From Chamaelirium japonicum (Eukaryota; Streptophyta; Magnoliopsida; Liliales; Melanthiaceae): 64,000 bases of DNA. A program made the translations under genes and the position numbers. Where the stretch lies: positions 496,001 to 560,000 of the forward strand of contig CANTAL010000137.1 of assembly GCA_947650365.1 (NCBI GenBank). The letters are read 5' to 3'. Shown in pieces: positions 4,356-63,460 of this stretch. Under the pieces are notes generated by a model, which made no database searches, was not told the DNA's origin, and saw only the letters and a list, made by a program, of their open reading frames with translations. The stretch's first letter is position 1. The number at the start of each line of letters is the position of its first letter.

Positions 4356-4787
4356 TAATGGATCATACGAATGAGTAAGAATGGATCGTACGAATGAAAT
4401 AGAATGGATTATGCGAATGAATTAGAATGGATCGTACGAATGAATTAGAATGGCTCGTACGAATGAATTAGAATGGATCATACGAATGAATTAGAATGGA
4501 TACATTCGTGCGAATGAATTAGAATGGATACATTCGAGTGAAAGAATTAGAATAGATCGTATGAATGAATTAGAATGGATCCTATGAATGAATTAGAATG
4601 GATCGTGCGAATGAATTAGAATGGATCGTACGAATGAATTAGAATGGATCGTGCTAATGAATTAGAATTGATCGAACGAATGAATTAGCATGGATCGTGC
4701 TAATGAAGTAGAATGGAACGTACGAATGAATTAGAATGGATCGTGTGAAAGAATTAGAATGGATTGTATGAATGAATTATAATAAAT
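4356..4787 (+). repeat. Forward satellite block
   Basis: Contains the ordered markers GTGCTAATG, GATCGAACG, TTAGCATGG, GTGCTAATG, GGAACGTACG, GTGTGAAAG, GATTGTATG, the exact reverse complement of the order seen just after 58930 and 62932. Ends in the GAATTC-type junction in reverse orientation. Confidence 0.92.
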
Positions 4788-5460
4788 TCGTACGATCCAT
4801 TCGAATTCATTCGCACGATCCATTCTAATTCATTCATACGATCCATTCTAATTCATTCATACAATCCATTCTAATTCTTTAACACGATCCATTCTAATTC
4901 ATTCGTAGGATCCATTCTAATTCATTCGTACAATCTATTCTATTTCATTCGTATGATCCATTCTTACTCATTCGAATGATCCATTCTAATTCATTCGGAC
5001 GAATGTATCCATTCTAATTCATTCGTACGATCCATTCTAATTCATTCGTACGATCCTTTCTTACTCATTCGTATGATCCATTCTAATTCATTCGTACGAT
5101 CCATTCTAATTCATTCGTACGATCGGTTCTAATTCATTCGCACTATCCATTCTAATTCATTCATACGATCCATTCTAATTCATTCGTATGATCCATTCTA
5201 ATTTATTCGTTCAAATATATCCATTCTAATTCATTCGTACGATCCATTTTAATTCATTCGCATGATCCATTCTAATTCATTCGCACGAATGTATCCATTC
5301 TAATTCATTTGCACGATCCATTCTAATTCATTCCTATGATCTATTCTAATTTATTCGTACGATCCATTCTAATTCATTCTAATTCATTCGTACGATTCAT
5401 TCTACGATCCATTCTAATTCATTCGTATATTCCATTCTAATTCATTAGAACGATCCATGC
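4788..5460 (-). repeat. Reverse satellite block with scrambled end
   Basis: The last 90 bases hold shortened units: a core repeated without its linker (CTAATTCATTCTAATTC) and a 13-base step (CATTCTACGATCC). The same shortened units flank the palindromes at 25302 and 38400. Confidence 0.9.
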
Positions 5461-5476
5461 TAATGAATTAGAATGG
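5432..5476. repeat. Palindrome, 19-base arms, 7-base spacer (copy 1)
   Basis: Left arm CCATTCTAATTCATTAGAA, spacer, then TGCTAATGAATTAGAATGG; the TTAGAA end has one mismatch against the right arm. It creates a forward segment of about 23 bases that flips back to reverse through GGATCGTACGATCC near 5483. Confidence 0.85.
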
Positions 5477-5483
5477 ATCGTAC

Positions 5484-6293
5484 GATCCAATCTAATTCAT
5501 TAATACGATCCATTCTTACTCATTCGTATGATCCATTCTAATTCAATCGTACGATCCATTCTAATTCATTCGTACGATCCATTCTAATTCCTTCGTACGA
5601 TCCATTCTAATTCCTTCGTACGATCCATTCTATTTCATTCGTATGATCCATTCTAATTCCTTCGTACGATCCATTCTAATTCTTTTGTATCTATTCTAAT
5701 TCACTCATACGATCCATTCTAATTCATTCGTACGATCCATTCTAATTCATTCATACAATCCATTCTAATTCATTCGCACGAATCTATCCATTCTAATTCA
5801 TTCGTACGATCAGTTCTAATTCATTCACAAAATCTATTCTAATTCATTCATACGATCCATTCTAATTCATTCACATGAATGTATCCATTCTAATTCATTC
5901 ATACGATCCATTCTAATTCATTCGTACGATCCATTCTAATTCACTCATACGATCCATTCTAATACATTCATACGATCCATTCTAATTCATTTGCACGAAT
6001 ATATCCATTCTAATTCATTCGTACGATCCATTCTAATTCATTCGTAAGATCCATTCTAATTCATTCGTACGATCCATTTTAATTCATTCGTACGATCCAT
6101 TCTAATTCCTTCGTACGATCCATTCTAATTCATTCGTACGATCCATTCTAATTCTTTCACACGATCCATTCTAATTTATTCGTACGATCCATTCTAATTC
6201 ATTTGTGCAATCCATTCTATTTCATTCGTACGATCCATTTTTACTCATTCGTACGATCCATTCTAATTCATTCACACGAATGTATCCATTCGT
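5484..6293 (-). repeat. Reverse satellite block
   Basis: Includes the CCTTCG cluster (5588-5690) with a 20-base short unit near 5690, then CACTCATACG and ATACATTCATACG markers. Ends with CACACGAATGTATCC followed by the palindrome CATTCGTACGAATG. Confidence 0.92.
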
Positions 6294-6925
6294 ACGAATG
6301 AATTAGAATAGATTGTACGAATGAATTAGAATGGATCATACGAATGAATTAGAATGGATCGTACGAAGGAATTAGAATGGATCGTACGAATGAATTAGAA
6401 TGGATCGTATGAATGAATTAGAATAGATCGTACGAATGAATTAGAATGGATCGTACGAAGGAATTAGAATGGATCGTACGAATGAATTAGAATGGATATA
6501 TTCGTGCAAATGAATTAGAATGGATCGTATGAATGTATTAGAATGGATCGTATGAGTGAATTAGAATGGATCGTACGAATGAATTAGAATAGATTGTATG
6601 AATGAATTAGAATGGATCGTACGAATGAATTAGAATGGATCATACGAATTAATTAGAATGGATCGTACGAATGAATTAGAATGGATCATACGAATGAATT
6701 AGAATGGATACATTCGTGCGATTGAATTAGAATGGATTGTGCGAATGAATAAGAACAGATCGTGCGAATGAATTAGAATGGATCGTACGAATGAATTAGA
6801 ATGGATCGTGCAAATGAATTAGAATGGATCGTACGAATGAATTAAAATGGATCGTATGATTGAATTAGAATGGATCATGCAAATGAGTAATAATGGATCA
6901 TATGAATGAATTAGATTGGATCGTA
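6294..6925 (+). repeat. Forward satellite block
   Basis: Starts with GAATAGATTGTACG, the constant follower of this junction type, and carries the GATATATTCGTGC, GAATGTATTAG, GTATGAGTG series near 6490-6560. Confidence 0.92.
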
Positions 6926-6929
6926 CGAT

Positions 6930-6974
6930 CCATTCTAATTCATTAGCATGGATCGTGCTAATGTATTAGAATGG
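6930..6974. repeat. Palindrome, 19-base arms, 7-base spacer (copy 2)
   Basis: Left arm CCATTCTAATTCATTAGCA (6930-6948), spacer TGGATCG, right arm 6956-6974 with one mismatch (GTATT for GAATT). It forms a reverse mini-block inside forward DNA, entered through TTGGATCGTACGATCC. It is the opposite orientation of copies 1, 3 and 4. Confidence 0.87.
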
Positions 6975-7630
6975 AATATACGAATGAATTAGAATGGATC
7001 GTAGAATGGATCGTACGAATGAATTAGAATGGATCGTACGAATGAATTAGAATAGATCATAGGAATGAATTAGAATGGATCGTGCAAATGAATTAGAATG
7101 GATACATTCGTGCGAATGAATTAGAATGGATCGTGCGAATGAATTAGAATGGATCGTACGAATGAATTAGAATGGATATATTTGAACGAGTAAATTAGAA
7201 TGGATCATACGAATGAATTAGAATGGATCGTATGAATGAATTAGAATGGATAGTGCGAATGAATTAGAATCGATCGTACGAATGAATTAGAATGGATCGT
7301 ACGAATGAATTAGAATGGATCATACGAATGAGTAAGAATTGATCGTACGAATGAATTAGAATGGATCGTACGAATGAATTAGAATGGATCATACGAATAA
7401 ATTAGAATGGATACATTCGTTCGAATGAATTAGAATGGATCATACGAATGAGTAAGAATGGATCGTACGAATGAAATAGAATAGATTGTACGAATGAATT
7501 AGAATGGATCCTACGAATGAATTAGAATCGATCGTGTGAAAGAATTAGAATGGATTGTATGAATGAATTAGAATGGATCGTATGAATGAATTAGAATGGA
7601 TCGTGCGAATGAATTCGAATGGATCGTATG
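6945..7630 (+). repeat. Forward satellite block
   Basis: Contains a shortened step GATCGTAGAATGG near 7000, and GATATATTTGAACG near 7170, both repeated at 58330-58530. Ends at the GAATTC-type junction. Confidence 0.92.
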
Positions 7631-9405
7631 AATTCATTCAAATTCATTCATACAATCCATTCTAATTCTTTCACACGATCCATTCTAATTCATTCGTACG
7701 TTCCATTCTAATTCATTAGCACGATCCATGCTAATACAGTCGTTCGATCAATTCTAATTCATTAGCACGATCCATTCTAATTCATTCGTACGATCCATTC
7801 TAATTCTTCGCACGATCCATTCTAATTCATTCATAGGATCCATTCTAATTAATTCATACGATCTATTCTAATTCTTTCGCACGAATGTATCCATTCTAAT
7901 TCATTCGCACGAATGTATCCATTCTAATTCATTCGTACGATCCATTCTAATTCATTCGTACGATCCATTCTAATTCATTCATATGATCTATTCTAATTCA
8001 TTCATACAATCCATTCTAATTCTTTCACACGATCCATTCTAATTCATTCGTACGATCCATTCTAATTCATTCGCACAATCCATTCTATTTCATTCGTACG
8101 ATCCATTCTTACTCATTGGTACGATCCAATCTAATTCATTCGCACGAATGTATCCATTCTAATTCATTCGTACGAATCCATTCTAATTCATTCGTACAAT
8201 CCATTCTATTTCATTCGTACGATCCTTTCTTACTCATTCGTATGATCCATTCTAATTCATTCGCACGAATGTATCCATTCTAAATCATTCGTACGATCCA
8301 TTCTAATTCATTCGTACGATCCATTCTAAATCATTCGTACAATCCATTCTATTTCATTCGTACGATCAATTCTAATTCATTAGCACGATCCATTCTAATT
8401 CATTCGTACGATCCATTCAAATTCATTCGCACGATCCATTCTAATTCATTCGCACGAATGTATCCATTCTAATCCATTCGTACGATCCATTCTAATTCAT
8501 TCGCATGAATGTAACCATTCTAATTCATTCATTTGATCCATTCTAATTCATTCGTACGATCCATTCTAATTCATTCGTCCGATTCATTCTAAATCATTCG
8601 CACGAATGTATCCATTCTAAACCATTCATACGATCCATTCTAATTTATTCGTACGATCCATTCTAATTCATTCGTAAGATCCATTCTAATTCATTCGTAC
8701 GATCCATTCTAATTCATTCGTACGATCCATTCTAATTCATTCGTAAGATCCATTCTAATTCATTCGTACGATCCATTCTAATTCATTCGTACGATACATT
8801 CTAATTCATTCGCACGAATGTATCCATTCTAGTTCATTCGTACAATCCATTCTAATTCATTCGTACGATCCATTCTAATTCATTCGCACGATCCATTCTA
8901 ATTCATTCGTACGATCCATTCTAATTCATTCATACGATCCATTCTAATTCATTCGTACGATCCATTCTAATTCATTCGCACAAATATATCCATTCTAATT
9001 CATTCGTACGATCCATTCTAATTCATTCGCACGATCCATTCTAATTCATTCGTACGATCCATTCTAATTCTTTCACACGATCCATTCTAATTCATTCGTA
9101 CGATCCATTCTAATTCATTCGCACGATCCATTCTAATTCATTCGTACGATCCATTCTAATTCATTCATACGATCCATTCTAATTCATTCGCACAAATGTA
9201 TCCATTCTAATTCATTCGTACGATCCATTCTAATTCATTCGCACGATCCATTCTAATTCATTCGTACGATCCATTCTAATTCATTCGCACGATCTGTTCT
9301 TATTCATTCGTACGATCCATTCTAATTCATTCGTACGATCCACTCTAATTCATTCGTATGATCCATTCTAATTAATTCGTATGATCCATTCATTCGTCCG
9401 ATCCA
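7631..9405 (-). repeat. Reverse satellite block, 1.8 kb
   Basis: Opens with ATACAATCC, CTTTCACACG, GTACGTTCC, TTAGCACG, CCATGCTAAT, GTTCGATCAA, the marker order following most copies of this junction. A cassette with GTAACC and CATTTGATCC lies at 8460-8560. Ends at CCATTATGGATAC. Confidence 0.92.
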
Positions 9406-9447
9406 TTATGGATACATCCGTGCTAATGAATTAGAATGGATCGTACG
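9406..9447 (+). repeat. Forward mini-block between two junctions
   Basis: About 42 bases: GGATACATCCGTGCTAATG and one core, then back to reverse through GGATCGTACGATCC. It looks like a fusion of the CCATTATGGATAC junction with the right arm of the 19-base-arm palindrome. Confidence 0.85.
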
Positions 9448-10731
9448 ATCCAATCTAAGTCATTCATACGATCCATTCTTACTCATTCGTATGATCCATT
9501 CTAATTCAATCGTACGATCCATTCTAATTCATTCGTATGATCCATTCTAATTCCTTCGTACGATCCATTCTAATTCATTCGTATGATCCATTCTAATTCA
9601 TTCGCGCAATCTATTCTAATTCGTTCGTACGATCTATTCTAATTCATTCGTACGATCCATTCTAATTCATTCATAAAATCCATTCTAATTTATTCGCACG
9701 AATGTATCCGTTCTAATTCATTCGTACGATCCATTCTAATTCATTCGCACAATCTATTCTAATTCATTCATACGATCTATTTTAATTCATTCGCACGAAT
9801 GTATCCATTCTAATTCATTCATACGATCCATTCTACTTTATTCGTACTATCCGTTCTTATTCACTCATACGATCCATTCTAATTCATTCATACGATCCAT
9901 TCTAATTCATTTGCACGAATATATCCATTCTAATTCATTCGTACGATCCATTCTAATTCCTTCGTACGATCCATTCTAATTCCTTCGTACGATCCATTCT
10001 AATTCCTTCGTACGATCCATTTTATTTCATTCGTATGATCCATTCTAATTCCTTCGTACGATCCATTCTAATTCCTTCGTATCCATTATAATTCACTCAT
10101 AGGATCCATTCTAATTCATTCGTACGATCCATTCTAATTCATTCATACAATCCATTCTAATTCATTCGCACGAATGTATCCATTCTAATTCATTCGTACG
10201 ATCAGTTCCAATTCATTCACAAAATCTATTCTAATTCATTCATACGATCCATTCTAATTCATTCACATGAATGTATCCATTCTAATTCATTCATACGATC
10301 CATTCTAATTCATTCGTACGATCCATTCCAATTCACTCATACGATCCATTCTAATACATTCATACGATCCATTCTAATTCATTTGTACGAATATATCCAT
10401 TCTAATTCATTCGTACGATCCATTCTAATTCCTTCGTACGATCCATTCTAATTCATTCGTACGATCTACTCTAATTCATTCGTACGATCCATTCTAATTC
10501 ATTCGTACGATCCATTCTAATTCCTTCGTACGATCCATTCTAATTCATTCGTATGATCCATTCTAATTCATTCATACAATCCATTCTAATTCTTTCACAC
10601 GATCCATTCTAATTCATTCGTACGATCCATTCTAATTCATTCATGCAATCCATTCTATTTCATTCGTACGATGCATTCTTACTCATTCGTACGATCCATT
10701 CTAATTCATTCACACGAATGTATCCATTCGT
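9448..10731 (-). repeat. Reverse satellite block
   Basis: Second extended CCTTCG cluster (9950-10090) with a 20-base unit near 10077. The order of markers parallels 59930-60260. Ends at CATTCGTACGAATG after CACACGAATG. Confidence 0.92.
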
Positions 10732-12743
10732 ACGAATGAATTAGAATAGATTGTACGAATGAATTAGAATGGATCGTACAAATGAATTAGAATGGATCGT
10801 ACGAAGGAATTAGAATGGATCGTACGAATGAATTAGAATGGATCGTACGAATGAATTAGAATAGATCGTACGAATGATTTAGAATGGATCATACGAAGGA
10901 ATTAGAATGGATCATACGAATGAATTAGAATGGATATATTCGTGCAAATGAATTAGAATGGATCGTATGAATGTATTAGAATGGATCGTATGGGTGAATT
11001 AGAATAGATCGTACGAATGAATTAGAATGGATTGTATGAATGAATTAGAATGGATCGTACGAATGAATTAGAATGGATCATACGAATTAATTAGAATGGA
11101 TCATACGAAAGAATTAGAATGGATCGTACGAATGAATTAGAATGGATCGTATGAATGAATTAGAATGGATACATTCGTGCGAATGAATTAGAATGGATTG
11201 TGCGAATGAATAAGAACAGATCGTGTGAATGAATTAGAATGGATCGTACGAATGAATAAGAATGGATCGTGCGAATGAATTAGAATGGATCGTACGAATG
11301 AATTAGAATGGATACATTTGTGCGAATGAATTAGAATGGATCGTACGAATGAATTAGAATGGATCGTATGAATGAATTAGAATGGATCGTACGAATGAAT
11401 TAGAATGGATCGTGCGAATGAATTAGAATAGATCGTACGAATGAATTAGAATGGATCGTGTGAAAGAATTAGAATGGATCGTACGAATGAATTAGAATGG
11501 ATCGTGCGAATGAATTAGAATGGATTGTACGAATGAATTAGAATGGATACATTTGTGCGAATGAATTAGAATAGATCGTACGAATGAATTAGAATGGATC
11601 GTATGAATAAATTAGAATGGATCGTACGAATGAATTAGAATGGAATGTGCGAATGAATTTGAATGGATCGTACGAATGAATTAGAATGGATCGTACGAAT
11701 GAACTAGAATGGATACATTCGTGCAAATGAATTAGAATGGATCGTACGAATGAATTAGAATGGATCGTACGAATGAATTAGAATGGATCGTACGAATGAA
11801 TTAGAATGGATCGTACGAATGAATTAGAATGGATACATTTGTGCGAATGAATTAGAATGGATCGGACGAATGAATTAGAATGGATCGTACGAATGAATTA
11901 GAATAGATCGTACGAATGAATTAGAATGGATCGTACGAATAAATTAGAATGGATACATTCGTCCGAATGAATTAGAATGGATCATACGAATGAGTAAGAA
12001 TGGATCGTACGAATGAAATAGAATAGATTGTACGAATAAATTAGAATGGATCCTACGAATGAATTAGAATGGATCGTGTGAAAGAATTAGAATGGATTGT
12101 ATGAATGAATTAGAATAGATCGTATGAATGAATTAGAATGGATCATACGAATGAATTAGAATGGATTGTACGAATGAATTAGAATGGATCGTACGAATGA
12201 ATTAGAATGGATACATTCATGCGAATGAATTAGAATGGATACATTCGTGCGAAAGAATTAGAATAGATCGTATGAATGAATTAGAATGGATCCTATGAAT
12301 GAATTAGAATGGATTGTGCGAATGAATTAGAATGGATCGTACGATTGAATTAGAATGGATCGTGTGAAAGAATTAGAATGGATCGTACGAATGAATTAGA
12401 ATGGATCGTGCGAATGAATTAGAATGGATCGTACGAATGAATTAGAATGGATACATTTGTGCGAATGAATTAGAATGGATCGTACGAATGAATTAGAATG
12501 GATTGTGCTAATGAATTAGAATTGATCGAACGAATGAATTAGAATGGATCGTGCTAATGAATTAGAATGGATCGTACGAATGAATTAGAATGGATCGTGC
12601 GAATGAATTAGAATGGATCGTATGAATGAATTAGAATGGATACATTTGTGAGAATGAATTAGAATGGATCGTACGAATGAATTAGAATGGATCGTATGAA
12701 TGAATTAGAATGGATCGTGCGAATGAATTCGAATGGATCATAC
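10732..12743 (+). repeat. Forward satellite block, 2.0 kb
   Basis: 28-type units at 11712, 11832, 11952, 12210 and 12238 are spaced 120, 120, 258 and 28 bases, all fitting 28+23n. Ends at the GAATTC-type junction preceded by the GTGTGAAAG and GATTGTATG monomers. Confidence 0.93.
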
Positions 12744-13084
12744 GAATTCATTCTAATTCATTCATACAATCCATTCTAATTCTTTCACACGATCCATTCT
12801 AATTCATTCGTACGTTCCATTCTAATTCATTAGCACGATCCATGCTAATTCATTCGTTCGAACAAATCTAATTCATTAGCACGATCCATTCTAATTCATT
12901 TGTACGATCCATTCTAATTCATTCGCACGATCCATTCTAATTCATTCATTGGATCCATTCTAATTCATTTATACGATCTATTCTAATTCTTTCGCACGAA
13001 TGTATCCATTCTAATTCATTCGCAGGAATGTATCTATTCTAATTCATTCGTACGATCCATTCTAATTCATTCATACGATACATT
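12744..13084 (-). repeat. Reverse satellite block cut by foreign insert
   Basis: Begins with the standard post-junction marker order (CTTTCACACG, GTACGTTCC, CCATGCTAAT) and stops in mid-monomer at GATACATT, directly before the GC-rich insert. Confidence 0.92.
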
Positions 13085-13164
13085 TGAATCTTGTGGTGAA
13101 CAATGGGAAGTGGGGCAGGTGGCTGACCTGGGCCGGCATCCGGGCGAGGAGGTGGTGGAGGTGC
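13085..13164. other. 80-bp GC-rich non-satellite insert
   Basis: The only sequence here unrelated to the satellite: 51 of 80 bases are G or C (about 64%). It separates a reverse block from a forward one, so it sits on a strand switch. One forward frame is open across it (includes EQWEVGQVADLGRHPG) but runs into satellite and stops at the next core; at least two reverse frames are also open, so openness at this length means little. No start codon context, target-site duplication or terminal repeat is visible. I do not recognise the source; a scrap of a coding region or transposon used as filler at a repaired break is possible. Confidence 0.85.
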
Positions 13165-14229
13165 GGATACATTCGTGCGAATGAATTAGAATGGATTGTA
13201 TGAATGAATTAGAATAGAATTAGAATTAGAATGGATCGTACGAAGGAATTAGAATGGATCGTACGAATGAATTAGAATAGATCGTACGAATGAATTAGAA
13301 TGGATCGTACGAAGGAATTAGAATGGATCGTACGAATGAATTAGAATGGATTGTGCGAATGAATTAGAATGGATCGTACGAATGAATTAGAATGGATCGT
13401 GTGAAAGAATTAGAATGGATTGTATGAATGAATTAGAATAGATCGTATGAATGAATTAGAATGGATCGTACGAATGAATTAGAATGGATCGTACGAATGA
13501 ACTAGAATGGATACATTCGTGCGAATGAATTAGGATGGATCGTACGAATGAATTAGAATGGATCGTACGAATGAATTAGAATGGATCTTACGAATGAATT
13601 AGAATGGATCGTACGAATGAATTAGAATGGATCGTACGAATGAATTAGAATGGATACATTCGTGCGAATGAATTAGAATAGATCGGACGAATGAATTAGA
13701 ATGGATCGTACGAATGAATTAGAATGGATCGTATGAGTGAATTAGAATGGATCGTACGAATGAATTAGAATGGATCGTATGAATGAATTAGAATGGATCG
13801 TGCGAAAGAATTAGAATGCATTGTATGAATGAATTAGAATGTATCGTATGAATGAATTAGAATGGATCATGCGAATGAATTCGAATGGATCGCATGATCC
13901 ATTCGAATAGAATGGATCGTATGAATGAATTAGAATGGATTGGGCGAATGAATTAGAATGGATTGTAGGAATGAATGAGAATGGATCGTATGAATGAATT
14001 AGAATGGATCGTATGAATGAATTAGAATGGATCGTGCGAATGAATTAGAATGGATCATTTGAATGAATTAGAATGGATCATACGAATGAATTAGAATGGA
14101 TCATACGAATGAGTAAGAATGGATCGTACGAATGAAATAGAATGGATTGTACGAATGAATTAGAATGGATACATTCATGCGAATGAATTAGAATGGATCG
14201 GACGATTGAATTAGAATGGATCGTACGAT
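13165..14229 (+). repeat. Forward satellite block with internal hairpin
   Basis: Starts inside a 28-type unit (GGATACATTCGTGCG) right after the insert. Interrupted by the hairpin at 13879-13908, then GTGCG/GGGCG monomers. Ends at GTACGATTCATTC. Confidence 0.92.
13879..13908. repeat. Hairpin, 13-base arms, GCAT loop (copy 1)
   Basis: ATTCGAATGGATC, GCAT, GATCCATTCGAAT: perfect arms 13879-13891 and 13896-13908. It lies inside forward satellite, after CGTGCGAATGAATTC or a near variant, and is followed by AGAATGG. Confidence 0.93.
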
Positions 14230-15132
14230 TCATTCTAATTCATTCGTACGATCCATTCTAATATATTCGTACGATTCATGCTAATTCATTCGCACGATCC
14301 ATTCTAATTCATTCGTACGATCTATTCGTATTCATTCATACGATCCATTCTAATTCATTCGCACAATCCATTCTAATTCATTCGTACAATCCATTCTGAT
14401 TCATTCGTATGATCCATTCTAACTCATTCGGTGGATCCATTCTAATTCATTCGTACGATCCATTCTAATTCATTCCCACGATCCATTCTAATTTATTCGT
14501 ACGATCCATTCTAATTAATTCGTACGATCTATTCTAATTCATTCGCACGAATGTAACCATTCTAATTCATTCATATGATTCATTCTAATTCATTCGTACA
14601 ATCCATTCTAATTCATTCGTACGATCCATTGTAATTCATTCATATAATCCATTTAGATTCATTCGCACAAATCTATCCATTCAAATTCATTCGTACGATC
14701 CATTCTAATTCATTCGTACGATCCATTCTAATTCATTCATACGATCTATTCTAATTCATTCATACAATCCATTCTAATTCTTTCACACGATCCATTCTAA
14801 TTCATTCGTACGATCCATTCTAATTCATTCATACGATCCATTCTAATTCACTCATACGATCCATTCTAATACATTCATACGATCCATTCTAATTCATTTG
14901 CACGAATATATCCATTCTAATTCATTCGTACGATCCATTCTAATTTATTCATACGATCCATTCTAATTCATTTGAACGAATATATCCATTCTAATCCATT
15001 CGTACGATCCATTCTAATTCCTTCGTACGATCCATTCTAATTCGTTCGTACGATCCATTCTAATTCATTCGTACGATCCATTCTAATTCATTAATATGAT
15101 CCATTCTAATTCATTCGTACGATCCATTCTAA
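14230..15132 (-). repeat. Reverse satellite block
   Basis: Opens with GTACGATTCATTC at 14223 and has the rare GGTGGATCC monomer exactly 207 bases (9 units) later at 14430, the same spacing as in the blocks at 28198 and 56421. Ends at CATTCTAATGAATTAG, a flip within the core. Confidence 0.91.
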
Positions 15133-16206
15133 TGAATTAGAATTGATCGTACGAATGAAATAGAATGGATTGCACGAATGATTTAGAATGGATCGTACGA
15201 ATGAATTAGAATGGATCGTGTGAAAGAATTAGAATGGATTGTATGAATGAATTAGAATGGATCGTACGAATGAATTAGAATGGATCTTACAAATGAATTA
15301 GAATGGATTGAAATGGATTAGAATGGATTGTGCGAATGAATTAGAATGGATCGTATGAATGAGTAAGAATGGATCGTACGAATGAATTAGAATGGATCGT
15401 GCGAATGAATTAGCATGAATCGTACGAATGTATTAGAATGGATCATACGAATGAGTAAGAATGGATCGTACGAATGAAATAGAATGGATTGTACGAATGA
15501 ATTAGAATGGATACATTCGTGCGAATGAATTAGAATGGATCGTATGAGTTAATTATAATGGATCATACGAATGAATTAGAATGGATCGTAAGAATGAATT
15601 AGAATTGATCGTACGAATGAATTAGAATGGATCGTACGAATGAATTAGAATGGATACATTTGTGCGAATGAATTAGAATGGATCGTACGAATGAATTAGA
15701 ATGGATCGTATGAATGAATTTGAATGGATCGTACGAATGAATTAGAACGGATCGTGCGAATGAATTAGAATGGATCGTACGAATGAATTAGAATGGATCG
15801 TGTGAAAGAATTAGAATGGATCGTACGAAAGAATTAGAATGGATCATGCGAATGAATTAGAATGGATCGTACGAATGAATTAGAATGGATACATTTGTGC
15901 GAATGAATTAGAATGGATCATACGAATGAATTAGAATGGATCGTATGAACGAATTAGAATGGATCGTACGAATGAATTAGAATGGATCGTGCGAATGAAT
16001 TAGAATGGATCGTACGAATGAATTAGAATGGATCGTACGAATGAACTAGAATGGATACATTCGTGCGAATGAATTAGAATGGATCGTACGAATGAATTAG
16101 AATGGATCGTACGAATGAATTAGAATGGATCTTACGAATGAATTAGAATGGATCGTACGAATGAATTAGAATGGATCGTACGAATGAATTAGAATGGATC
16201 GTACGC
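15133..16206 (+). repeat. Forward satellite block
   Basis: Ordinary mixed monomers; 15650-16200 repeats the series 28-type, GTACG, GTATG, GTGCG, GTGTGAAAG with small variations. Ends abruptly as GTACG joins CTCGAATGTATCC. Confidence 0.9.
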
Positions 16207-24233: not shown

Positions 24234-24300
24234 AGAATGGATCGTATGAATGAATTAGAATGGATCGGGCGAATGAATTAGAATGGATTGTAGGAATGAA

Positions 24301-38444: not shown

Positions 38445-38449
38445 ATCGT

Positions 38450-51436: not shown

Positions 51437-51466
51437 TCGTACGAATGAATTAGAATGGATCGTACG
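51407..51466. repeat. Perfect 60-bp palindrome, tandem copy
   Basis: Centre 51436/51437, 226 bases after the previous palindrome, with the same left-side extra C. Confidence 0.95.
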
Positions 51467-51861: not shown

Positions 51862-52656
51862 GAATTCATTCTAATTCATTCATACAATCCATTCTAATTC
51901 TTTCACACGATCCATTCTAATTCATTCGTATGTTCCATTCTTATTCATTAGCACGATCCATGCTAATTTATTCGTTCGATCAATTCTAATTCATTAGCAC
52001 GATCCATTCTAATTCATTCGTACGATCTATTCTAATTCATTCGCACGATCCATTCTAATTCATTTATAGGATCCATTCTAATTCATTCATACGATCTATT
52101 CTAATTCTTTCGCACGAATGTATCCATTCTAATTCATTCGCACAAATGTATCCATTCTAATTCATTCGTACGATCCATTCAAATTCATTCGTACGATCCA
52201 TTCGAATTCATTCGCACGATCCATTCTAATTCATTCATGTGATCTATTCTAATTCATTCATACAATCCATTCTAATTCTTTCACACGATCCATTCTAATT
52301 CATTCGTACGATCCATTCTAATTCATTCACACGATCCATTCTAATTCATTCGTACGATCCATTGTAATTCATTCACACGATCCATTCTAATTCAATCGTA
52401 TGATCCATTCTAATTCTTTCGTACGATCCATTCTAATTCATTCGTACGATCCATTCTAATTCTTCGCACGAATGTATCCATTCTAGTTCATTCGTACGAT
52501 CCATTCTAATTCATTCGTACGATCCATTCTAATTCATTCGCACGATCCATTCTAATTCATTCGTACGATCCATTCTAATTCATTCATACAATCCATTCTA
52601 ATTCATTCGTACGATCCATTCTAATTCATTCGTACAATCTATTCTAATTCATTCGT
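51862..52656 (-). repeat. Reverse satellite block
   Basis: Standard marker order with GTATGTTCC and CTTATTC variants. Ends with GTACAATC ... CATTCGTACGAATGGATAC, the inverted form of the CACACGAATG junction. Confidence 0.92.
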
Positions 52657-53012
52657 ACGAATGGATACATTCGTGTGAATGAATTAGAATGGATCGTACG
52701 AATGAGTAAGAATGGATCGTACGAATGAAGTAGAATGGATTGCACGAATGAATTAGAATGGATCGTACGAATGAATTAGAATGGATCATGTGAATGAATT
52801 AGAATGGATTTTATGAATAAACTAGAATGAATCGTACAAAGGAATTAGCATGGATCGTACGAATGAATTAGAATAGATCGTACGAATGAATTAGAATGGA
52901 TCGTACGAATGAATTAGAATGGATCGTGTGAAAGAATTAGAATGGATCGTACGAATGAATTAGAATGGATCGTGCGAATGAATTAGAATGGATCGTACGA
53001 ATGAATTAGAAT
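52657..53012 (+). repeat. Forward satellite block
   Basis: Opens with GGATACATTCGTGTG as at 41272. Ends in a triple flip at 53009-53040 (AGAATTCATTTGCACG, then TTAGAATTCATTC). Confidence 0.88.
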
Positions 53013-53035
53013 TCATTTGCACGAATGAATTAGAA

Positions 53036-53973
53036 TTCATTCTATTTCATTTGCATGAATATATCCATTCTAATTAATTCGTACGATCCATTCTAATTCA
53101 ATCGTATGATCCATTCTAATTTATTCTTACTCATTCGTGCATGATCCATTCTAATTCATTCGCACGAATGTATCCATTCTAATTCATTCGTACGATCCAT
53201 TCTAATTCATTAATATGATCTATTCTAATTCATTCGTATGATCCATTCTTATTCATTCGGACGCCATTCTAATTCATTCGTACGATCCATTCTAATTCAT
53301 TCGTACGATCCATTCTTACTCATTGGTACGATCCATTCTAATTCATTCGCACGAATGTATCCATTCTAATTCATTCGTACGAATCCATTCTAATTCATTC
53401 GTATGATCCATTCGAATATATTCATACGATCCATTCTAATTCATTTGCATGAATATATCCATTCTAATTCATTCGTACGATCCATTCTAATCCTTCGTAC
53501 GATCCATTCTAATTCATTCGTACGATCTATTCTAATTCATTCGTACGATCCATTCTAATTCATTCGTACGATCCATTCTAATTCCTTCGTACGATCCATT
53601 CTAATTCATTCGCACGAATGTATCCATTCTAGTTCATTCGTACGATCCATTCTAATTCATTCGTACGATCCATTCTAATTCATTCATACGATCTATTCTA
53701 ATTCATTCATACAATCCATTCTAATTCTTTCACACGATCCATTCTAATTCATTCGTATGATCCATTCTAATTCATTTATACGATCCATTCTAATTCATTT
53801 GTACGATCCATTCTAATTCATTCGTACAATCCATTCTATTTCATTCGTACGATCCATTCTTACTCATTCTTATGATCCATTCTAATTCATTCGCACGAAT
53901 GTATCCATTCTAATTCATTCATACAATCCATTCTAATTCATTCCGTACGATCCATTCTAATTCATTCGTACGA
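53036..53973 (-). repeat. Reverse satellite block
   Basis: Includes a damaged monomer GGACGCCATTC at 53260, a GTGCATGATCC step at 53137, and a monomer one base short (CTAATCCTTCG, 53490). Confidence 0.91.
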
Positions 53974-54003
53974 TCGTACGAATGAATTAGAATGGATCGT
54001 ACG
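53944..54003. repeat. Perfect 60-bp palindrome
   Basis: Thirty-base arms, centre 53973/53974, with the same CATTCCGTACG asymmetry and upstream ATACAATCC as the 51.2-51.4 kb copies. Confidence 0.95.
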
Positions 54004-55162
54004 AATGAATTAGAATAGATTGTACGAATGAATCAGAATGGATCCTACAAATGAATTAAAATGGATCGTGTGAAAGAATTAGAATGGATCGTACAGATGA
54101 ATTAGAATGGATCGTACGAATGAATTAGAATGGATCATACGAATGAGTAAGAATGGATCGTACAAATGAAATAGAATGGATTGTACGAATGAATTAGAAT
54201 GGATCGTACGAATGAATTAGAATGGATCGTGTGAAAGAATTAGAATGCATTGTATGAATGAATTAGAATGGATCGTACGAAGGAATTAGAATGGATCGTA
54301 CGAATGAATTAGAATGGATATATTCGTGCAAATGAATTAGAATGGATCGTATGAATGTATTAGAATGGATCGTATGAGTGAATTAGAATGGATCTTACGA
54401 ATGAATTAGAATGGATCGTACGAATGAATTAGAATGGATCGTACGAATGAATTAGAATGGATACATTCGTGCGAATGAATTAGAATGGATCGGACAAATG
54501 AATTAGAATGGATCGTACGAATGAATTAGAATGGATCGTACGAATGAATTAGAATGAATTAGATTGGATTGTACGAATGAATTAGAATGGATTCGTACGA
54601 ATGAATTAGAATGGATACATTCGTGCGAATGAATTAGAATGGATCGTACCAATGAGTAAGAATGGATCGTACGAATGAAATAGAATGGATTGTGCGAATG
54701 AATTAGAATGGATCGTACGAATGAATTAGAATGGATCGTGTGAAAGAATTAGAATGGATTGTATGAATGAATTAGAATAGATCGTATGAATGAATTAGAA
54801 TAGATCGTATGAATGAATTAGAATGGATCGTACGAATGAATTAGAATGGATACATTCGTGCGAATGAATTAGAATGGATACATTCGTGCGAAAGAATTAA
54901 AATAGATCGTATGAATGAATTAGAATGGATCCCATTAATGAATTAGAATGGATCGTGCGTATGAATTAGAATGGATCGTACGAATGAATTAGAATGGATC
55001 GTACGAATGAATTAGAATGGATCGTGCTAATGAATTAGAATTGATCGAACGAATGAATTAGCATGGATCGTGCTAATGAATTAGAATGGAACGTACGAAT
55101 GAATTAGAATGGATCGTGTGAAAGAATTAGAATGGATTGTATGAATGAATTAGAATGAATTC
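53974..55162 (+). repeat. Forward satellite block
   Basis: GATATATTCGTGC, GAATGTATTAG, GTATGAGTG series at 54318-54390. Ends in GTGCTAATG, GATCGAACG, TTAGCATGG, GGAACG, GTGTGAAAG, GATTGTATG and a reverse-oriented GAATTC-type junction. Confidence 0.92.
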
Positions 55163-55583
55163 GTACGATCCATTCGAATTCATTCGCACGATCCCTTCTA
55201 ATTCATTCATACGATCCATTCTAATTCATTCATACAATCCATTCTAATTCTTTCACACGATCCATTCTAATTCATTCGTAGGATCCATTCTAATTCATTC
55301 GTACAATCTATTCTATTTTGTTCGTATGATCCATTCTTACTCATTCGTATGATCCATTCTAATTCATTCGGACGAATGTATCCATTCTAATTTATTCGTA
55401 CGATCCATTCTAATTCATTCGTACGATCCATTCTAATTCATTCGTACGATCCATTCTTACTCATTCGTATGATCCATTCCAATTCATTCGTACGATCCAT
55501 TCTAATTCATTCATATGATCCATTCTAATTCATTCGCACAATCTATTCTAATTCATTCGTACGATCCAATCTAATTCATTCGT
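55163..55583 (-). repeat. Short reverse satellite block
   Basis: Parallels 4788-5160 monomer by monomer (CTTTCACACG, CGTAGG, TACAATC, CTTACTC, CGGACG, TTTATTCG). Ends through CATTCGTGCGAATG. Confidence 0.91.
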
Positions 55584-56420
55584 GCGAATGAATTAGAATG
55601 GATCGTACGAATGAGTAAGAATGGATCGTACGAATGAAATAGAATGGATTATACGAATGAATTAGAATGGATCGTACAAATGAAATAGAATGGATTAGAA
55701 TGGATCATACGAATGAGTAAGAATGGATCATACGAATGAGTAAGAATGGATTAGAATGGATCATACGAATGAGTAAGAATGGATCGTACGAATGAAATAG
55801 AATGGATTGTACGAATGAATTAGGATGGATCGTACAAATGAATTAGAATGGATCGTACGAATGAATTAGAATGGATCATACGAATGAGTAAGAATGGATC
55901 GTACAAATGAAATAGAATGGATTGTACGAATGAATTAGAATGGATCGTACGAATGAATTAGAATGGATTGTGTGAAAAAATTAGAATGCATTGTATGAAT
56001 GAATTAGAATGGATCGTATGAATGAATTAGAATGGATCGTGCGAATGAATTCGAATAGATCGCATGATCTATTCGAATAGAATGGATCATATGAATGAAT
56101 TAGAATGGATCGGGCGAATGAATTAGAATGGATTGTAGGAATGAATTAGAATGGATCGTATGAATGAATTAGAATGGATCGTATGAATGAATTAGAATGG
56201 ATCGTGCGAATGAATTAGAATGGATCGTACGAATGAATTAGAATGGATCGTTCGAATGAATTAGAATGGATCATACGAATGAATTAGAATGGATCATTCG
56301 AATGAGTAAGAATGGATCGTACGAATGAAATAGAATGGATTGTACGAATGAATTAGAATGGATACATTCATGCGAATGAATTAGAATGGATCGGACGATT
56401 GAATTAGAATGGATCGTACG
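55584..56420 (+). repeat. Forward satellite block with covarying hairpin
   Basis: GAATGAGTAAG monomers in tandem with two shortened GGATTAGAATGG units (55690-55760). Hairpin at 56049-56078. Ends GGATCGTACGATTCATTC. Confidence 0.92.
56049..56078. repeat. Hairpin, 13-base arms, with compensatory change (copy 5)
   Basis: Reads ATTCGAATAGATC, GCAT, GATCTATTCGAAT. Relative to the other copies, G became A in the left arm (56057) and the paired C became T in the right arm (56070), so symmetry is preserved. Confidence 0.95.
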
Positions 56421-58032
56421 ATTCATTCTAATTCATTCGTACGATCCATTCTAATACATTCGTACGATTCATGCTAATTCATTCGCACGATCCATTCTAA
56501 TTCATTCGTACGATCCATTCTTATTCATTCATACGATCCATTCTAATTCATTCGCACAATCCATTCTAATTCATTCGTACAATCCATTCTAATTCATTCG
56601 TATGATCCATTCTAACTCATTTGGTGGATCCATTCTAATTCATTCGTACGATCCATTCTAATTCATTCCCACGATCCGTTCTAATTTATTCGTACGATCC
56701 ATTCTAATTCATTCGTACGATCTATTCTAATTCATTCGCACGAATGTAACCATTCTAATTCATTCATATGATTCATTCTAATTCATTTGTATGAGCTATT
56801 CTAATTCATTCGTACGATCCATTCTAATTCATTCACATGAATGTATCCATTCTAATTCATTCATACGATCCATTCTAATTCATTCGTACGATCTATTCTA
56901 ATTCACTCATACGATCCATTCTAATACATTCATACGATCCATTCTAATTCAGTTGCACGAATATATCCATTCTAATTCGTTCGTACGATCCATTCTAATT
57001 CCTTCGTACGATCCATTCTAATTCATTCGTCCGATCTATTCTATTTCATTCGTACGATCCATTCTTACTCATTCGTACAATCCATTCTAATTCATTCGTC
57101 CGATCCATTCTAATTCATTCGCACGAATGTATCCATTCTAATTCATTCGTTCGATCAATTCTAATTCATTAGCACGATCCATTCTAATTCATTCATACGA
57201 TCCATTCTATTTCATTCGCACGATCCATTCTAATTCATTCATAGGAACAATTCTAATTCATTCATACGATCTATTCTAATTCTTTCGCACGAATGTATGT
57301 ATTCTAATTCATTCGCACGAATGTATCTATTCTAATTCATTCATACGATCCATTCTAATTCATTCGTACGATCCATTCTAATTCATTAATATGATCCATT
57401 CTAATTCATTCGTACGATCCATTCTAATTCATATGCACAAAGGTATCCATTCTAATCCATTCGTAGGATCCATTCTAATCCATTCGTACGATCTATTCTA
57501 ATTCATTCGTACGATCCATTCTAATTCATTCGCTCGAATGTATCCATTCTAATCCATTCGTACGATCCATTCTAATCCATTCGTATGATCCATTCTAATT
57601 CATTCGCATGAATATAACCATTCTAATTTATTCATTTGATCCATTCTAATTCATTCGTCCGATCCATTCTAATTCATTCGCACGAATGTATCTATTCTAA
57701 CTAATTCGTACGATCCATTCTAATTCATTCGTACGATCCATTCTAATTCATTCGTAAGATCCATTCTAATTCATTCGTACGATCCATTCTAATTCATTCG
57801 TATGATCCATTCTAATTCATTCGCACGAATGTATCCATTCTAGTTCATTCGTACGATCCATTCTAATTCATTCGTACGATCCTTTCTAATTCATTCGCAC
57901 GATCCATTCTAATTCATTCGTACGATCAATTCTAATTCATTCGTGCAATCCATTCTATTTCATTCGTATGATCCATTCTTTCTTATTCGTACGATCCATT
58001 CTAATTCATTCACACGAATGTATCCATTCGTA
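56421..58032 (-). repeat. Reverse satellite block, 1.6 kb
   Basis: GGTGGATCC at 56623 is 207 bases after GTACGATTC at 56416. Marker cassette (ATATGCACAAAGG, GAATATAACC, CATTTGATCC) at 57430-57650. Ends CACACGAATGTATCC plus CATTCGTATGAATG. Confidence 0.92.
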
Positions 58033-58268
58033 TGAATGAATTTGAATAGATTGTACGAATGAATTAGAATGCATCGTACGAAGGAATTAGAATGGATCGT
58101 ACGAATGAATTAGAATGGATCGTACGAATGAATTAGAATGGATCGTACGAAGGAATTAGAATGGATCGTACGAATGAATAAGAATGGATCGTACGATTGA
58201 ATTAGAATGGATCATACGAATGAGTAAGAATGGATCGTATGAATGAATTAGATTGGATCGTACGATCC
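58033..58268 (+). repeat. Short forward satellite block
   Basis: About ten units with GAAGGAATT variants, ending at TTGGATCGTACGATCC. Confidence 0.91.
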
Positions 58269-58311
58269 ATTCTAATTCATTAGCATGGATCGTGCTAATG
58301 AATTAGAATGG
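58267..58311. repeat. Palindrome, 19-base arms, 7-base spacer (copy 5)
   Basis: Perfect arms 58267-58285 and 58293-58311, spacer TGGATCG; same orientation as 6930. Confidence 0.93.
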
Positions 58312-58929
58312 AATATACGAATGAATTAGAATGGATCGTAGAATGGATCGTACGAATGAATGAAAAAGAATTAGAATGGATCGTACGAATGAATTAGAAT
58401 AGATCATAGGAATGAATTAGAATGGATCGTGCAAATGAATTAGAATGGATACATTCGTGCGAATGAATTAGAATGGATCGTGCGAATGAATTAGAATGGA
58501 TCGTACGAATGAATTAGAATGGATATATTTGAACGAATAAATTAGAATGGATCATACGAATGAATTAGAATGGATCGTACGAATGAATTAGAATGGATAG
58601 TGCGAATGAATTAAAATCGATCGTACGAATTAATTAGAATGGATCGTACGAATGAATTAGAATGGATCGTACGAATGAATTAGAATGGATCGTACGAATA
58701 AATTAGAATGGATACATTCGTCCGAAAAATTAGAATGGATCATACGAATGAGTAAGAATGGATCGTACGAATGAAATATAATAGATTGTACGAATAAATT
58801 AGAATGCATCCTACGAATGAATTAGAATGGATCGTGTGAAAGAATTAGAATGGATTGTATGAATGAATTAGAATGGATCGTATGAATGAATTAGAATGGA
58901 TCGTGCGAAGGAATTCGAATGGATCGTAC
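58284..58929 (+). repeat. Forward satellite block
   Basis: Repeats the 6945-7630 block in marker order (GGAATATACG, GATCGTAGAATGG, ATAGATCATAGG, GATATATTTGAACG, GGATAGTGCG). It differs by an irregular GAATGAATGAAAAAG stretch at 58350 and a net loss of 37 bases before the junction. Confidence 0.92.
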
Positions 58930-59481
58930 GAATTCATTCTAATTCATTCATACAATACATTCTAATTCTTTCACACGATCCTTTCTAATTCATTCATACA
59001 TTCCATTCTAATTCATTAGTATGATCCATGCTAATTCATTCGTTCGATCAATTCTAATTCATTAGCACGATCCATTCTAATTCATTCGTACGATCCATTC
59101 TAATTCAATCGCACGATCCTTTCTAATTAATTCATAGGATCCATTCTAATTCATTCATACGATCTATTCTAATTCTTTCGCACGAATGTATCCATTCTAA
59201 TTCATTCGCACGAATGTATCCATTCTAATTCATTCGTACGATCCATTCTAATTCATTCGTACGATCCATTCTAATTCATTCGTACGATCCATTCTAATTC
59301 ATTCATACAATCTATTCTAATTCATTCATACAATCTATTCTAATTCTTTCACACGATCCATTCTAATTCATTCGTACGATCCATTCTAATTCATTTGCAC
59401 AATCCATTCTATTTCATTCGTACGATCCATTCTTACTCATTCGTATGATCCATTCTAATTCATTCGCACGAATGTATCCAT
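58930..59481 (-). repeat. Reverse satellite block, module copy B
   Basis: Start of the second 720-base module; from GAATTCATTC (58930) to GTCATTC (59650) the length is identical to copy A. Confidence 0.93.
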
Positions 59482-59651
59482 AATGGATCATACGAATGAG
59501 TAAGAATGGATCGTACGAATGAAATAGAATGGATTGTGCGAATGAATTAGAATGGACCGTACGAATGAATTAGACGTACGAATGAATTAGAATGGATACA
59601 TTCGTGCGAATAAATTAGAATGGATCATACGAATGAGTAAGAATGGATCGT
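59482..59651 (+). repeat. Short forward satellite block, module copy B end
   Basis: GGACCGTAC and TTAGACGTACG marks, then GGATCGTCATTC. Confidence 0.93.
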
Positions 59652-60369
59652 CATTCTAATTCATTCGTATGATCCATTCTAATTCATTTGTATCCATTCT
59701 ATTTCATTCGCACGATCCATTCTAATTCATTCGCGCAATCTATTCTAATTCATTCGTACGATCCATTCTAATTCATTCGTACGATCCATTCTAATTCATT
59801 CACACAATCCATTCTAATTTATTCGCACGAATGTATCCATTCTAATTCGTTCGTACGATCCATTCTAATTTATTCGCACAATCTATTCTAATTCATTCAT
59901 ACGATCCATTCTAATTCATTCGCACGAATGTATCCATTCTAATTCATTCATACGATCCATTCTACTTCATTCGTACTATCCGTTCTAATTCACTCATACG
60001 ATCCATTCTAATTCATTCATACGATCCATTCTAATTCATTTGCACGAATATATCAATTCTAATTCATTCGTACGATCCATTCTAATTCCATCGTACGATC
60101 CATTCTAATTCCTTCGTGCGATCCATTCTAATTCCTTCGTACCATCCATTCTATTTCATTCGTATGATCCATTCTAATTCCTTCGTACGATCCATTCTAA
60201 TTCCTTCGTATCCATTCTAATTCACTCATACGATCCATTCTAATTCATTCGTACGATCAATTCTAATTCATTCATACAATCCATTCTAATTCATTAGCAC
60301 GATCCATTCTAATTGATATGCACGAAGGTATCCATTCTAATTCATTCGTACGATCCATTCTAATTCAGG
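59652..60369 (-). repeat. Reverse satellite block
   Basis: TTTGTATCC short unit, CGCGCAATC, then CCTTCG cluster with a 20-base unit near 60205. Ends AATTCAGGATCCTACG. Confidence 0.92.
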
Positions 60370-62931
60370 ATCCTACGAATGAATTAGAATGGATACATTC
60401 GTGCGAATGAATTAGAATTGATCGTACGAATGAATTAGAATGGATCGTGCGAAAGAATTAGAATGGATCGTATGAATGAATTAGAATGGATCGTACGAAT
60501 GAACTAGAATGGATACATTCGTGCGAATGAATTAGAATGGATCGTACGAATGAATTAGAATGGATCGTACGAATGAATTAGAATGGATCTTACGACTGAA
60601 TTAGAATGGATCGTACGAATGAATTAGAATGGATCGTACGAATGAATTAGAATGGATCGTACGAATGAATTAAAATGGATCGTGCGAATGAATTAGAATG
60701 GATCGTACGAATGGATTAGAATGGATCGTGTGAAAGAATTATAATGGATCGTACGAATGAATTAGAATGGATCGTGCGAATGAATTAGAATGGATCGTAC
60801 GAATGAATTAGAATGGATATATTTGTGCGAATGAATTAGATTGGATCGTACGAATTAATTAGAATGGATCGTATGAATGAATTAGAATGGATCGTACGAA
60901 TGAATTAGAATGGATCGTGCGAATGAATTAGAATGGATCGTACGAATGAATTAGAATGGATCGTACGAATGAACTAGAATGGATACATTCGTGCGAATGA
61001 ATTAGAATGGATCGTACGAATGAATTAGAATGGATCGTACGAATGAATTAGAATGGATCATACGAATGAATTAGAATGGATACATTCGTGCGAATGAATT
61101 AGAATGGATCGGACGAATGAATTAGAATGGATCGTACGAATGAATAAGAATGGATCGTATGAATGAATTAGAATGGATCGTACGAATAAATTAGAATGGA
61201 TACATTCGCCCGAATGAATTAGAATGGATCATACGAATGAGTAAGAATGGATCGTACGAATGAAATAGAATAGATTGTACGAATGAATTAGAATGGATTC
61301 GTACGAATGAATTAGAATGGATACATTCGTGCGAATGAATTAGAATGGATCGTACCAATGAGTAAGAATGGATCGTACGAATGAAATAGAATGGATTGTG
61401 CGAATGAATTAGAATGGATCGTGTGAAAGAATTAGAATGGATTGTATGAATGAATTAGAAAAGATCGTATGAATGAATTAGAATGGATCGTACGAATGAA
61501 TTAGAATGGATCGTACGAATGAATTAGAATGGATACATTCGTGCGAAAGAATTAGAATAGATCGTATGAATGAATTAGAATGGATCCTATGAATGAATTA
61601 GAATGGATCGTGCGAATGAATTAGAATGGATCGTACGAATGAATTAGAATAGATCGTACGAATGATATAGAATGGATCGTACAAAGGAATTAGAATGGAT
61701 CGTACGAATGAATTAGAATGCATATATTCGTGCAAATGAATTAGAATGGATCGTATGAATGTATTAGAATGGATCGTATGAGTGAATTAGAATGGATCGT
61801 ACGAATGAATTAGAATGGATTGTATGATTGAATTAGAATGGATCATACGAATGAATCAGAATGGATCATACGAATTAATTAGAATGGATCATACGAATGA
61901 ATTAGAATGGATCGTACGAATGAATTAGAATGGATTGTACGAATGAATTAGAATGGATACATTCGTGCGAATGAATTAGAATGGATTATGCGAATAAATA
62001 AGAACAGATCGTGCGAATGAATTAGAATGGATCGTACGAATGAATTAGAATGGATCGTGCGAATGAATTATAATGGATCGTACGAATAAATTAGAATGGA
62101 TACATTTGTGCGAATGAATTAGAATGGATCGTACGAATGAATTAGAATGGATCGTAGGAATGAATTAGAATGGATCGTACGAATGAATTAGAATAGATCG
62201 TGCGAATGAATTAGAATGGATCGTACGAATGAATTAGAATGGATTGTATGAAAGAATTAGAATGGATCATACGAATGAATTAGAATGGATCGTGCGAATG
62301 AATTAGAATGGATCGTACGAATGAATTAGAATGGATACATTTGTGCGAATGAATTAGAATGGATCGTACGAATGAATTAGAATGGATCGTATGAATAAAT
62401 TAGAATGGATCGTACGAATGAAATAGAATGGATCGTACGAATGGATTAGAATGGATCGTACGAATGAATTAAAATGGATCGTACGAATGAATTAGAATGG
62501 ATCTTACGAATGAATTAGAATGGATCGTACGAATGAATTAGAATGGATCGTACGAATGAATTAGAATGGATCGTACGAATGAATTAGAATGGATACATTC
62601 GTGCGAATGAATTAGAATGGATCGGACGAATGAATTAGAATGGATTGTACGAATCAATTAAAATGGATAGTTCGAATGAATTAGAATGGATCGTACGAAT
62701 AAATTAGAATGGATACATACGTCCGAATGAATTAGAATGGATCATACGAATGAGTAAGAATGGATCGTACGAATGAAATAGAATAGATTGTACGAATGAA
62801 TTAGAATGGATCCTATGAATGAATTAGAATGGATCGTGTGAAAGAATTAGAATGGGTTGTATGAATGAATTAGAATGGATCGTATGAATGAATTAGAATG
62901 GATCGTGCGAATGAATTCGAATGGATCGTAC
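60370..62931 (+). repeat. Forward satellite block, 2.6 kb
   Basis: Long run of near-consensus monomers with 28-type units throughout; the GATATATTCGTGC subtype (here GCATATATTCGTGC) followed by GAATGTATTAG and GTATGAGTG lies at 61720-61790. Ends at the GAATTC-type junction. Confidence 0.93.
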
Positions 62932-63460
62932 GAATTCATTCTAATTTATTCATACAATCCATTCTAATTCTTTCACACGATCCATTCTAATTCATTCGTA
63001 CGTTCCATTCTAATTCATTAGCACGATCCATGCTAATTCATTCGTTCGATCAATTCTAATTCATTAGCACGATCCATTCTAATTCATTCGTACGATCCAT
63101 TCTAATTCATTCGCACGATCCATTCTAATTCATTCATAGGATCCATTCTAATTCATTCATACGATCTATTCTAATTCTTTCGCACGAATGTATCCATTCT
63201 AATTCATTCGCACAAATGTATCCATTCTAATTCATTCGTACGATCCATTCTAATTCATTCGTACGATCCATTCTAATTCATTCATACGATCTATTCTAAT
63301 TCATTCATACAATCCATTCTAATTCTTTCACACGATCCATTCTAATTCATTCGTACGATCCATTCTAATTCATTCGCACAATTCATTCTATTTTATTCGT
63401 ACGATCCATTCTTACTCATTCGTATGATCCAATCTAATTCATTCGCACGAATGTATCCAT
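62932..63460 (-). repeat. Reverse satellite block, module copy C
   Basis: Third copy of the module. From GAATTCATTC (62932) to GTCATTC (63629) it is 697 bases, exactly one 23-bp unit shorter than copies A and B. Confidence 0.93.

Follow-up and report, generated by a model that had tools for sequence, protein, structure and literature searches.

The question raised by a 64,000-nucleotide stretch of the genome of Chamaelirium japonicum (Melanthiaceae; assembly GCA_947650365.1, contig CANTAL010000137.1, positions 496,001 to 560,000; hereafter the window) is how the same inversion junctions of a satellite repeat come to recur there in both orientations. The window consists from end to end of a 23-base-pair (bp) satellite with the unit GATCGTACGAATGAATTAGAATG, interrupted by one 88-base insert at 13085–13172, and a two-strand model of this unit splits it into 76 blocks of alternating strand separated by 75 switches. 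A previous inspection of the letters, the sequence-only reading, had listed places that correspond to 24 of the 75 switches. It assigned them to two types, referred to here as A (C-to-G switches) and B (G-to-C switches, the GAATTC type), and suggested that each type arose once and was then copied and inverted within larger segments. From the analysis described here, it is likely that each type goes back to one ancestral switch that spread as a passenger of copied segments, that in strand-balanced arrays this spread is blind to orientation, and that new switches are rare. Strand switches are also contained in the human satellite (HSat) arrays, for which no relation by sequence is claimed.

All the listed places lie close to switches found by the model: the nine A places are at most 13 bases from a C-to-G switch, and the fifteen B places at most 9 bases from a G-to-C switch. 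The A sequence GTATCCATAATGG has seven exact matches in the window versus a mean of 0.01 in shuffles, and the A places 47968 and 48670 have one letter changed from it. Of the 15 B centres, 11 have GAATTC letter for letter, and a one-letter variant is present at 47584, 48286, 4787 and 30208. The similarity of the flanks was judged against random places of equal phase, which over 300 bases gave an identity of 0.840 (standard deviation 0.027, 99th percentile 0.910, 2000 pairs), and by an anchored extension at about 90% identity or better, for which the smaller side reached 46 bases at the 95th percentile and 95 bases at the 99th in 1500 random in-phase pairs. This stricter extension replaced a first version with cheap gaps, which was useless (null median of 294 bases). 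Eight of the nine A places have at least 104 bases in common with another A on both sides, and 14 of the 15 B places at least 70 bases with another B. Both 300-base flanks exceed 0.91 in 26 of the 105 B pairs and in 4 of the 36 A pairs, and one flank does so in 47 and 11 pairs, respectively. When B and A were set against the remaining switches of like polarity (23 and 27 switches, both orientations), none of the 690 and none of the 486 comparisons had both flanks above 0.91, so the flanks are more alike within a type than between a type and other switches, as had been anticipated. Single origin also predicts that rare variants should be found on both flanks, and for B this is the case: in 16 columns, seven to the left and nine to the right, between 8 and 13 of the 15 copies share a letter present in less than 5% of the monomers, each column in both orientations (counts for B only, without a chance control). 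These similarities suggest that A and B, for the most part, each descend from one ancestral strand switch. Since nearby switches cut many flanks short, single origin is shown for most members and not for every pair; most members retain the same flanks, so their junctions were inherited within copied segments.

The copied segments are between a few hundred bases and over 12 kb long, and link places in one array as well as on different contigs. The window holds 166 self-duplicates (90 direct and 76 inverted) of 400 bases or more and at least 92% identity, versus one in a monomer-shuffled control, and these span 81% of it; a looser cut-off (250 bases, 92%) was dropped, as the control gave 185 versus 672. 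Of the 49 switches located inside these duplicates, 47 are matched by a switch in the partner copy. A comparison of ordered lists revealed that the 15 consecutive switches of the run given in Table 1 all match in order and type at contigs C8 and C3. The identity between the window and C8 is 96 to 99% over stretches of 2 to 6 kb, and that with C3 is 93 to 95% at both ends of the run; the middle of the run in C3 has a 945-base insert, and nothing there passed a cut-off of 500 bases and 93%. No switch was gained or lost in this run across the window, C8 and C3; therefore, switch formation seems slow relative to copying, and, judged from these alignments, new switches seem to be rare. Local tandem duplicates, i.e., head-to-tail growth, were also observed at 47447–48894 (702 bases apart, 99.3%), 51089–51542 (two copies of 226 bases, 97%) and 14224–15138 (three copies of 309 bases), and inverted arms of 1 kb, 93.8% identical, lie at 26598–27654 and 27959–29015 around a 300-base centre.

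The orientation of the copies is close to balanced. In genome-wide counts covering 1,518,659,071 bases in 3253 contigs, the exact 31-base A junction has 3907 forward and 3991 reverse occurrences, and the reversed-letter control none in either direction. The first 100 matches listed, which extend over 1.38 Mb of contig C1, include 49 plus and 51 minus, with 46 changes among 99 neighbours. The tree of the window B copies needs five orientation changes, at least four of which are forced by well-supported branches, and that of the eight window A copies needs two. A tree with many contigs, for which full flanks were present in 37 of 39 A rows and 63 of 67 B rows, shows forward and reverse copies intermixed, with 26 changes for B (shuffled mean 21.2) and 12 for A (shuffled mean 12.7). 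Contigs, however, have no fixed orientation, and certain loci duplicate one another in inverted form (loci L024 and L027 supply four matching pairs in this tree), so reliance is placed on the window-only tree and the single-contig counts. At 96% identity or more, a 200-base probe at a random point had on average 1.34 further copies in direct and 1.42 in inverted orientation (183 of 300 points have one), and a probe at a switch 0.97 and 0.92 (41 of 76, a set that includes both edges of the 88-base insert); the ratio of direct to inverted copies is about 1:1 at every identity level probed, for switches and random points. This ratio at 96% speaks against unequal crossing-over by itself being the chief amplifier at the kilobase scale here.

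An even orientation could also be produced by inversion in place, in which recombination between opposed blocks flips the intervening piece and reorients its junctions without copying. Opposed blocks of similar sequence are plentiful, such flips require no new junction, and the orientation changes (at least four) that the tree of the window B copies requires could be of this kind. Nevertheless, no flip was observed in the approximately 12.5 kb compared at three places, and inversion in place cannot multiply the A junctions to 7,898, so copying is needed too. As an explanation in its own right it is a possible but rather doubtful one, and it may well act jointly with copying. That junctions were inverted as part of larger segments is upheld by these data; what changes is the count, since inversion of existing junctions took place many times.

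To place A and B among other switches, a survey was made of 365 switches in 283,093 satellite bases from 30 sources, with a median block length of 517 bases (345 blocks) and full 100-base flanks for 354 of the switches. The 30 sources omit L001, L003, L004 and L005, which lie within or overlap other loci, and L029, L031, L033, L034 and L036, which are N or lack the satellite. Twenty-four of the 29 non-window sources were picked for the likeness of their own or an adjacent stretch to window positions 4000–5000, so this sample over-represents the A and B families. The surveyed switches cluster into 43 to 101 groups, according to the threshold and rule chosen, the largest by shared flanks being B-like (68 members) and A-like (37). 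Other recurring types, absent from the sequence-only reading, are CATTCACACGAATGTATCC at 6277, 10715, 23378, 33358, 49388 and 58015, and GGATCGTCATTC at 37412, 59651 and 63630, in addition to at least two more GAATTC-type switches at 19252 and 50175; 50175 and 30207 have one 300-base flank in common at 0.96. Tiny flipped stretches of 13, 24 or 39 bases are present at 5462–5485, 6929–6941, 9410–9448, 38430–38453 and 58266–58278, and at other loci too.

Several findings weigh against single origin followed by passive, orientation-blind spread. Pairs that share both 300-base flanks are a minority for A and for B. The B junction at 42330 (listed at 42325) shares up to 407 bases on its left and at most 13 on its right, and that at 17148 (listed at 17151) is weak, with 70 and 46 bases in common with most members. 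The A place at 9405 shares 10 or 35 bases of its left flank with other A places and 4 or 8 bases of its right flank with seven of the eight; against 17352, the right side can be aligned over about 500 bases, with an offset of 17 bases at the junction. With its flanks out of register, 9405 looks like a chance resemblance to A's 13 letters beside related satellite, and no in-register copy of A. Among the listed flips, all of which sit near true switches, this one would therefore be withdrawn, and 42325 is retained for its left flank only. Similarly, the claim that each type arose once and was copied in larger segments holds for most members, and leaves aside the 32 B pairs and 21 A pairs that share neither flank. 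Switches without a relative in the sample make up 5 of 10 at five loci picked by place and, at a strict threshold, 22 of 74 in the window, which indicates that private switches are common. In two smaller clusters, of 21 and 23 members, identity is about 0.99 at the junction and falls to 0.92–0.97 at 80–100 bases. The 331 ends of duplicates are divided into 76 in phase, 135 on the same strand out of phase and 120 on different strands, and the strand changes at 62 of 152 inverted and 58 of 179 direct ends, a mixture that favours neither homologous nor non-homologous ends. Longer duplicates lean towards the direct orientation (32 direct and 23 inverted at 600 bases or more; 13 and 10 for 400 bases at 95%). 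Finally, direct and inverted copies of random points outnumber those of switches at 94% (4.63 and 4.41 versus 1.61 and 1.57), 92% (14.7 and 13.9 versus 2.1 and 2.1) and 90% (47.7 and 45.6 versus 2.8 and 3.1); we read this excess below 96% as background likeness of the satellite, so the parity in copy number between switches and random points is limited to the youngest copies.

A rival view is that the same junction re-forms time after time, each inversion being independent and taking place at a sequence hot spot, for instance the unit palindrome TCGTACGA. Two seamless types located at unit palindromes (28 and 23 members) share both flanks above 0.91 in just 8–9% of their pairs, and may have more than one origin. 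Moreover, independent clusters fall on the TCGTACGA axis in 15 of 66 and 19 of 70 cases, versus about 1 in 20 in simulated joins; at the loosest threshold the figure is 5 of 51 (p 0.07), so the enrichment, seen at two of three thresholds, depends on the threshold. From this enrichment, it is suggested that new switches may start at the palindrome TCGTACGA. For A and B themselves this explanation is unlikely and is largely contradicted, given that both are off that axis by their model phases, and that the flanks of most members are shared far past the core on both sides, for B down to the rare letters.

A different possibility is that selection maintains the junctions for a structural role (as hairpin or cruciform), which was proposed for the inversion sites of Tribolium. 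In favour of this, many near-identical copies occur at many places, two smaller clusters show the mild rise in identity described above, and there is the published precedent (PMC13081366). In that source, TmSat1 and TmSat2 of Tribolium madens are macro-dyad satellites with 2044 copies of INV_1a at 98.9% and 3486 of INV_1b at 98.2%, inversion sites conserved at 98 to 99% are taken as a functional hint, and the pattern is said to be documented exclusively in Tribolium. In the satellite described here, the two largest of eight clusters (68 B-like and 37 A-like members) show no identity peak at the junction, with 0.96–0.98 at 0–10 bases and 0.975–0.985 at 20–60 bases; at 96%, random points are copied at least as often as switches, and many junction types exist side by side (55 groups at one threshold). 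The flat profile and the copy numbers at 96% argue, short of proof, for passengers rather than selected sites. The view of the switch as a passenger of larger copied pieces thus appears to be supported by these comparisons, and selection is considered very unlikely.

The closest published case is that of the Tribolium macro-dyads, of which the satellite analysed here would be a finer-grained variant. Both have subarrays in opposite orientation (the 76 blocks here) and inversion sites conserved in many copies. T. madens has a few types of inversion site in thousands of near-identical copies, and subarrays of several kb, mostly two per array, made of two interwoven satellites (major and minor) with cassettes. 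In contrast, the window shows one 23-bp repeat in many junction types, with a median block of about 500–600 bases and no cassette seen, and its two largest junction families lack a conservation peak; in array layout it differs from the Tribolium type. Among plants, the account of the heterochromatin of Cuscuta europaea (PMC8091179) describes the satellite CUS-TR24, with a 389-base monomer and arrays broken by simple sequence repeats and long interspersed nuclear elements, where neighbours within 1–10 kb have the same orientation in 40–45% and the opposite one in 10–15% of cases. It resembles the present satellite in that adjacent arrays lie in both orientations, and differs in its monomer length and in its preference for the same orientation. 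A search limited to open-licence papers found none that matched the letters of the repeat or a 23-bp plant satellite.

Two further explanations concern the vehicle and the data. Foldback-type transposons have inverted ends built of repeats, and a mobile cassette of this sort could carry the junction; its spread over many contigs and in both orientations would be as expected. However, no fixed ends are seen: among the 105 window pairs, the shared flank of B declines gradually, on the left from 0.70 of the pairs at 100 bases to 0.30 at 300 and 0.07 at 500, on the right from 0.47 to 0.33 and 0.12, and copies differ in how far B lies from its neighbouring switch. A fixed cassette was thus rejected for want of constant ends; the two-strand model leaves 88 bases unexplained (no search for coding sequence was made), and a cassette of any kind is highly improbable. 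An artefact of assembly or of chimeric reads could be suspected, since satellite arrays are difficult to assemble and several contig ends among the sampled loci are satellite or N. Fresh fold-back palindromes are ruled out at the window switches, where mirror identity is at most 0.90 over 100 bases and at most 0.86 over 300, and the copies of the junction region on many contigs are up to 95–96% identical rather than exact, so that an artefact is scarcely credible.

Table 1. Positions of the satellite, of the conserved run of switches and of the A and B junctions in the window (b, bases).
Feature	Position	Strand	Evidence or remark
23-bp satellite, unit GATCGTACGAATGAATTAGAATG	1..64000		G strand 34,045 b, C strand 29,867 b, 88 b non-satellite
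Run of 15 switches	283..12748		same order and type at C8 (82–102 kb) and C3 (98.73–98.75 Mb)
A junction (C to G)	4345..4366	+	core match, switch model, flank extension
A junction	17341..17362	+	core match, flank extension
A junction	37231..37252	+	core match, flank identity
A junction	59470..59491	+	core match, flank identity
A junction	63449..63470	+	core match, flank identity
A junction, reverse	16971..16992	-	core match, flank extension
A junction, reverse, one-letter variant	47962..47983	-	core, flank identity, extension
A junction, reverse, one-letter variant	48664..48685	-	core, flank identity, extension
A's 13 letters, flanks not shared in register	9403..9415	-	core match, extension
B junction (G to C)	7625..7645	+	flank identity, extension
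B junction	12739..12759	+	flank identity, extension
B junction	36686..36706	+	flank identity
B junction, left flank alone shared	42321..42341	+	flank identity, extension
B junction, one-letter variant	47580..47600	+	core, flank identity, extension
B junction, one-letter variant	48282..48302	+	core, flank identity, extension
B junction	51857..51877	+	flank identity
B junction	58925..58945	+	flank identity
B junction	62927..62947	+	flank identity
B junction, reverse	1981..2001	-	flank identity, extension
B junction, reverse	4775..4795	-	flank identity
B junction, reverse; short shared flanks; neighbour switches 158 and 191 b off	17138..17158	-	extension
B junction, reverse	30195..30215	-	flank identity
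B junction, reverse	32275..32295	-	flank identity, extension
B junction, reverse	55148..55168	-	flank identity

The repeat has the properties of a satellite, i.e., a long tandem array of a short unit throughout the window and a high abundance in many arrays (at least 221 matches on many contigs, and the A junctions counted above), near contig ends and also within large contigs. It is not organized as a higher-order repeat with a multimer of fixed length placed head to tail, given that the copies vary in length and lie in both orientations. If the density of A, one per approximately 14 kb, held throughout, the satellite would by rough inference total around 100 Mb. On contig C1, the A-junction spacing pattern of 2490519–2508403 repeats about 170 kb further on, at 2660319–2678369, and a 379-base spacing of adjacent A junctions occurs six times among the first 100 matches listed. 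The 88-base piece, rich in G+C, is nearly identical at window 13085–13172, L018 8950–9037 and L020 9000–9087, and is a single old insertion carried along by duplication. Non-satellite pieces that resemble long-terminal-repeat (LTR) retroelements, with ends like TGTTGGGGG or GTGGGGGAAAATC, break the arrays at L009, L010, L017 and L027. The start of the window's contig (1–1500, L034) is very A+T-rich and non-satellite, and TTTAGGG-like letters, which point to a plant, are present at the end of contig C3 (L031).

The sequence of events that we propose starts with rare first switches, which would have made the arrays strand-balanced. In such an array, a broken end that seeks a homologous partner would meet equal numbers of them facing either way; ectopic copying or recombination would then be blind to orientation, and the existing switches would spread both ways, possibly with inversion in place as a partner. 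A more general idea, advanced tentatively and with the balance tilted slightly against it, is that the normal recombination of a strand-balanced array is orientation-blind and could turn a few founder switches into thousands with no selection or mobile element, so that conserved sites can be passengers.

This account provides a neutral explanation, backed by controls, of the conservation of inversion sites in satellites, which has lately been read as a possible sign of function in Tribolium, and the passenger test used here could be applied to the sites of T. madens. Strand switches could also serve to trace the movement of satellite segments inside arrays and from chromosome to chromosome, which has long been an open question. 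If the account is true, highly conserved inversion sites that were taken as functional elsewhere may be plain passengers.

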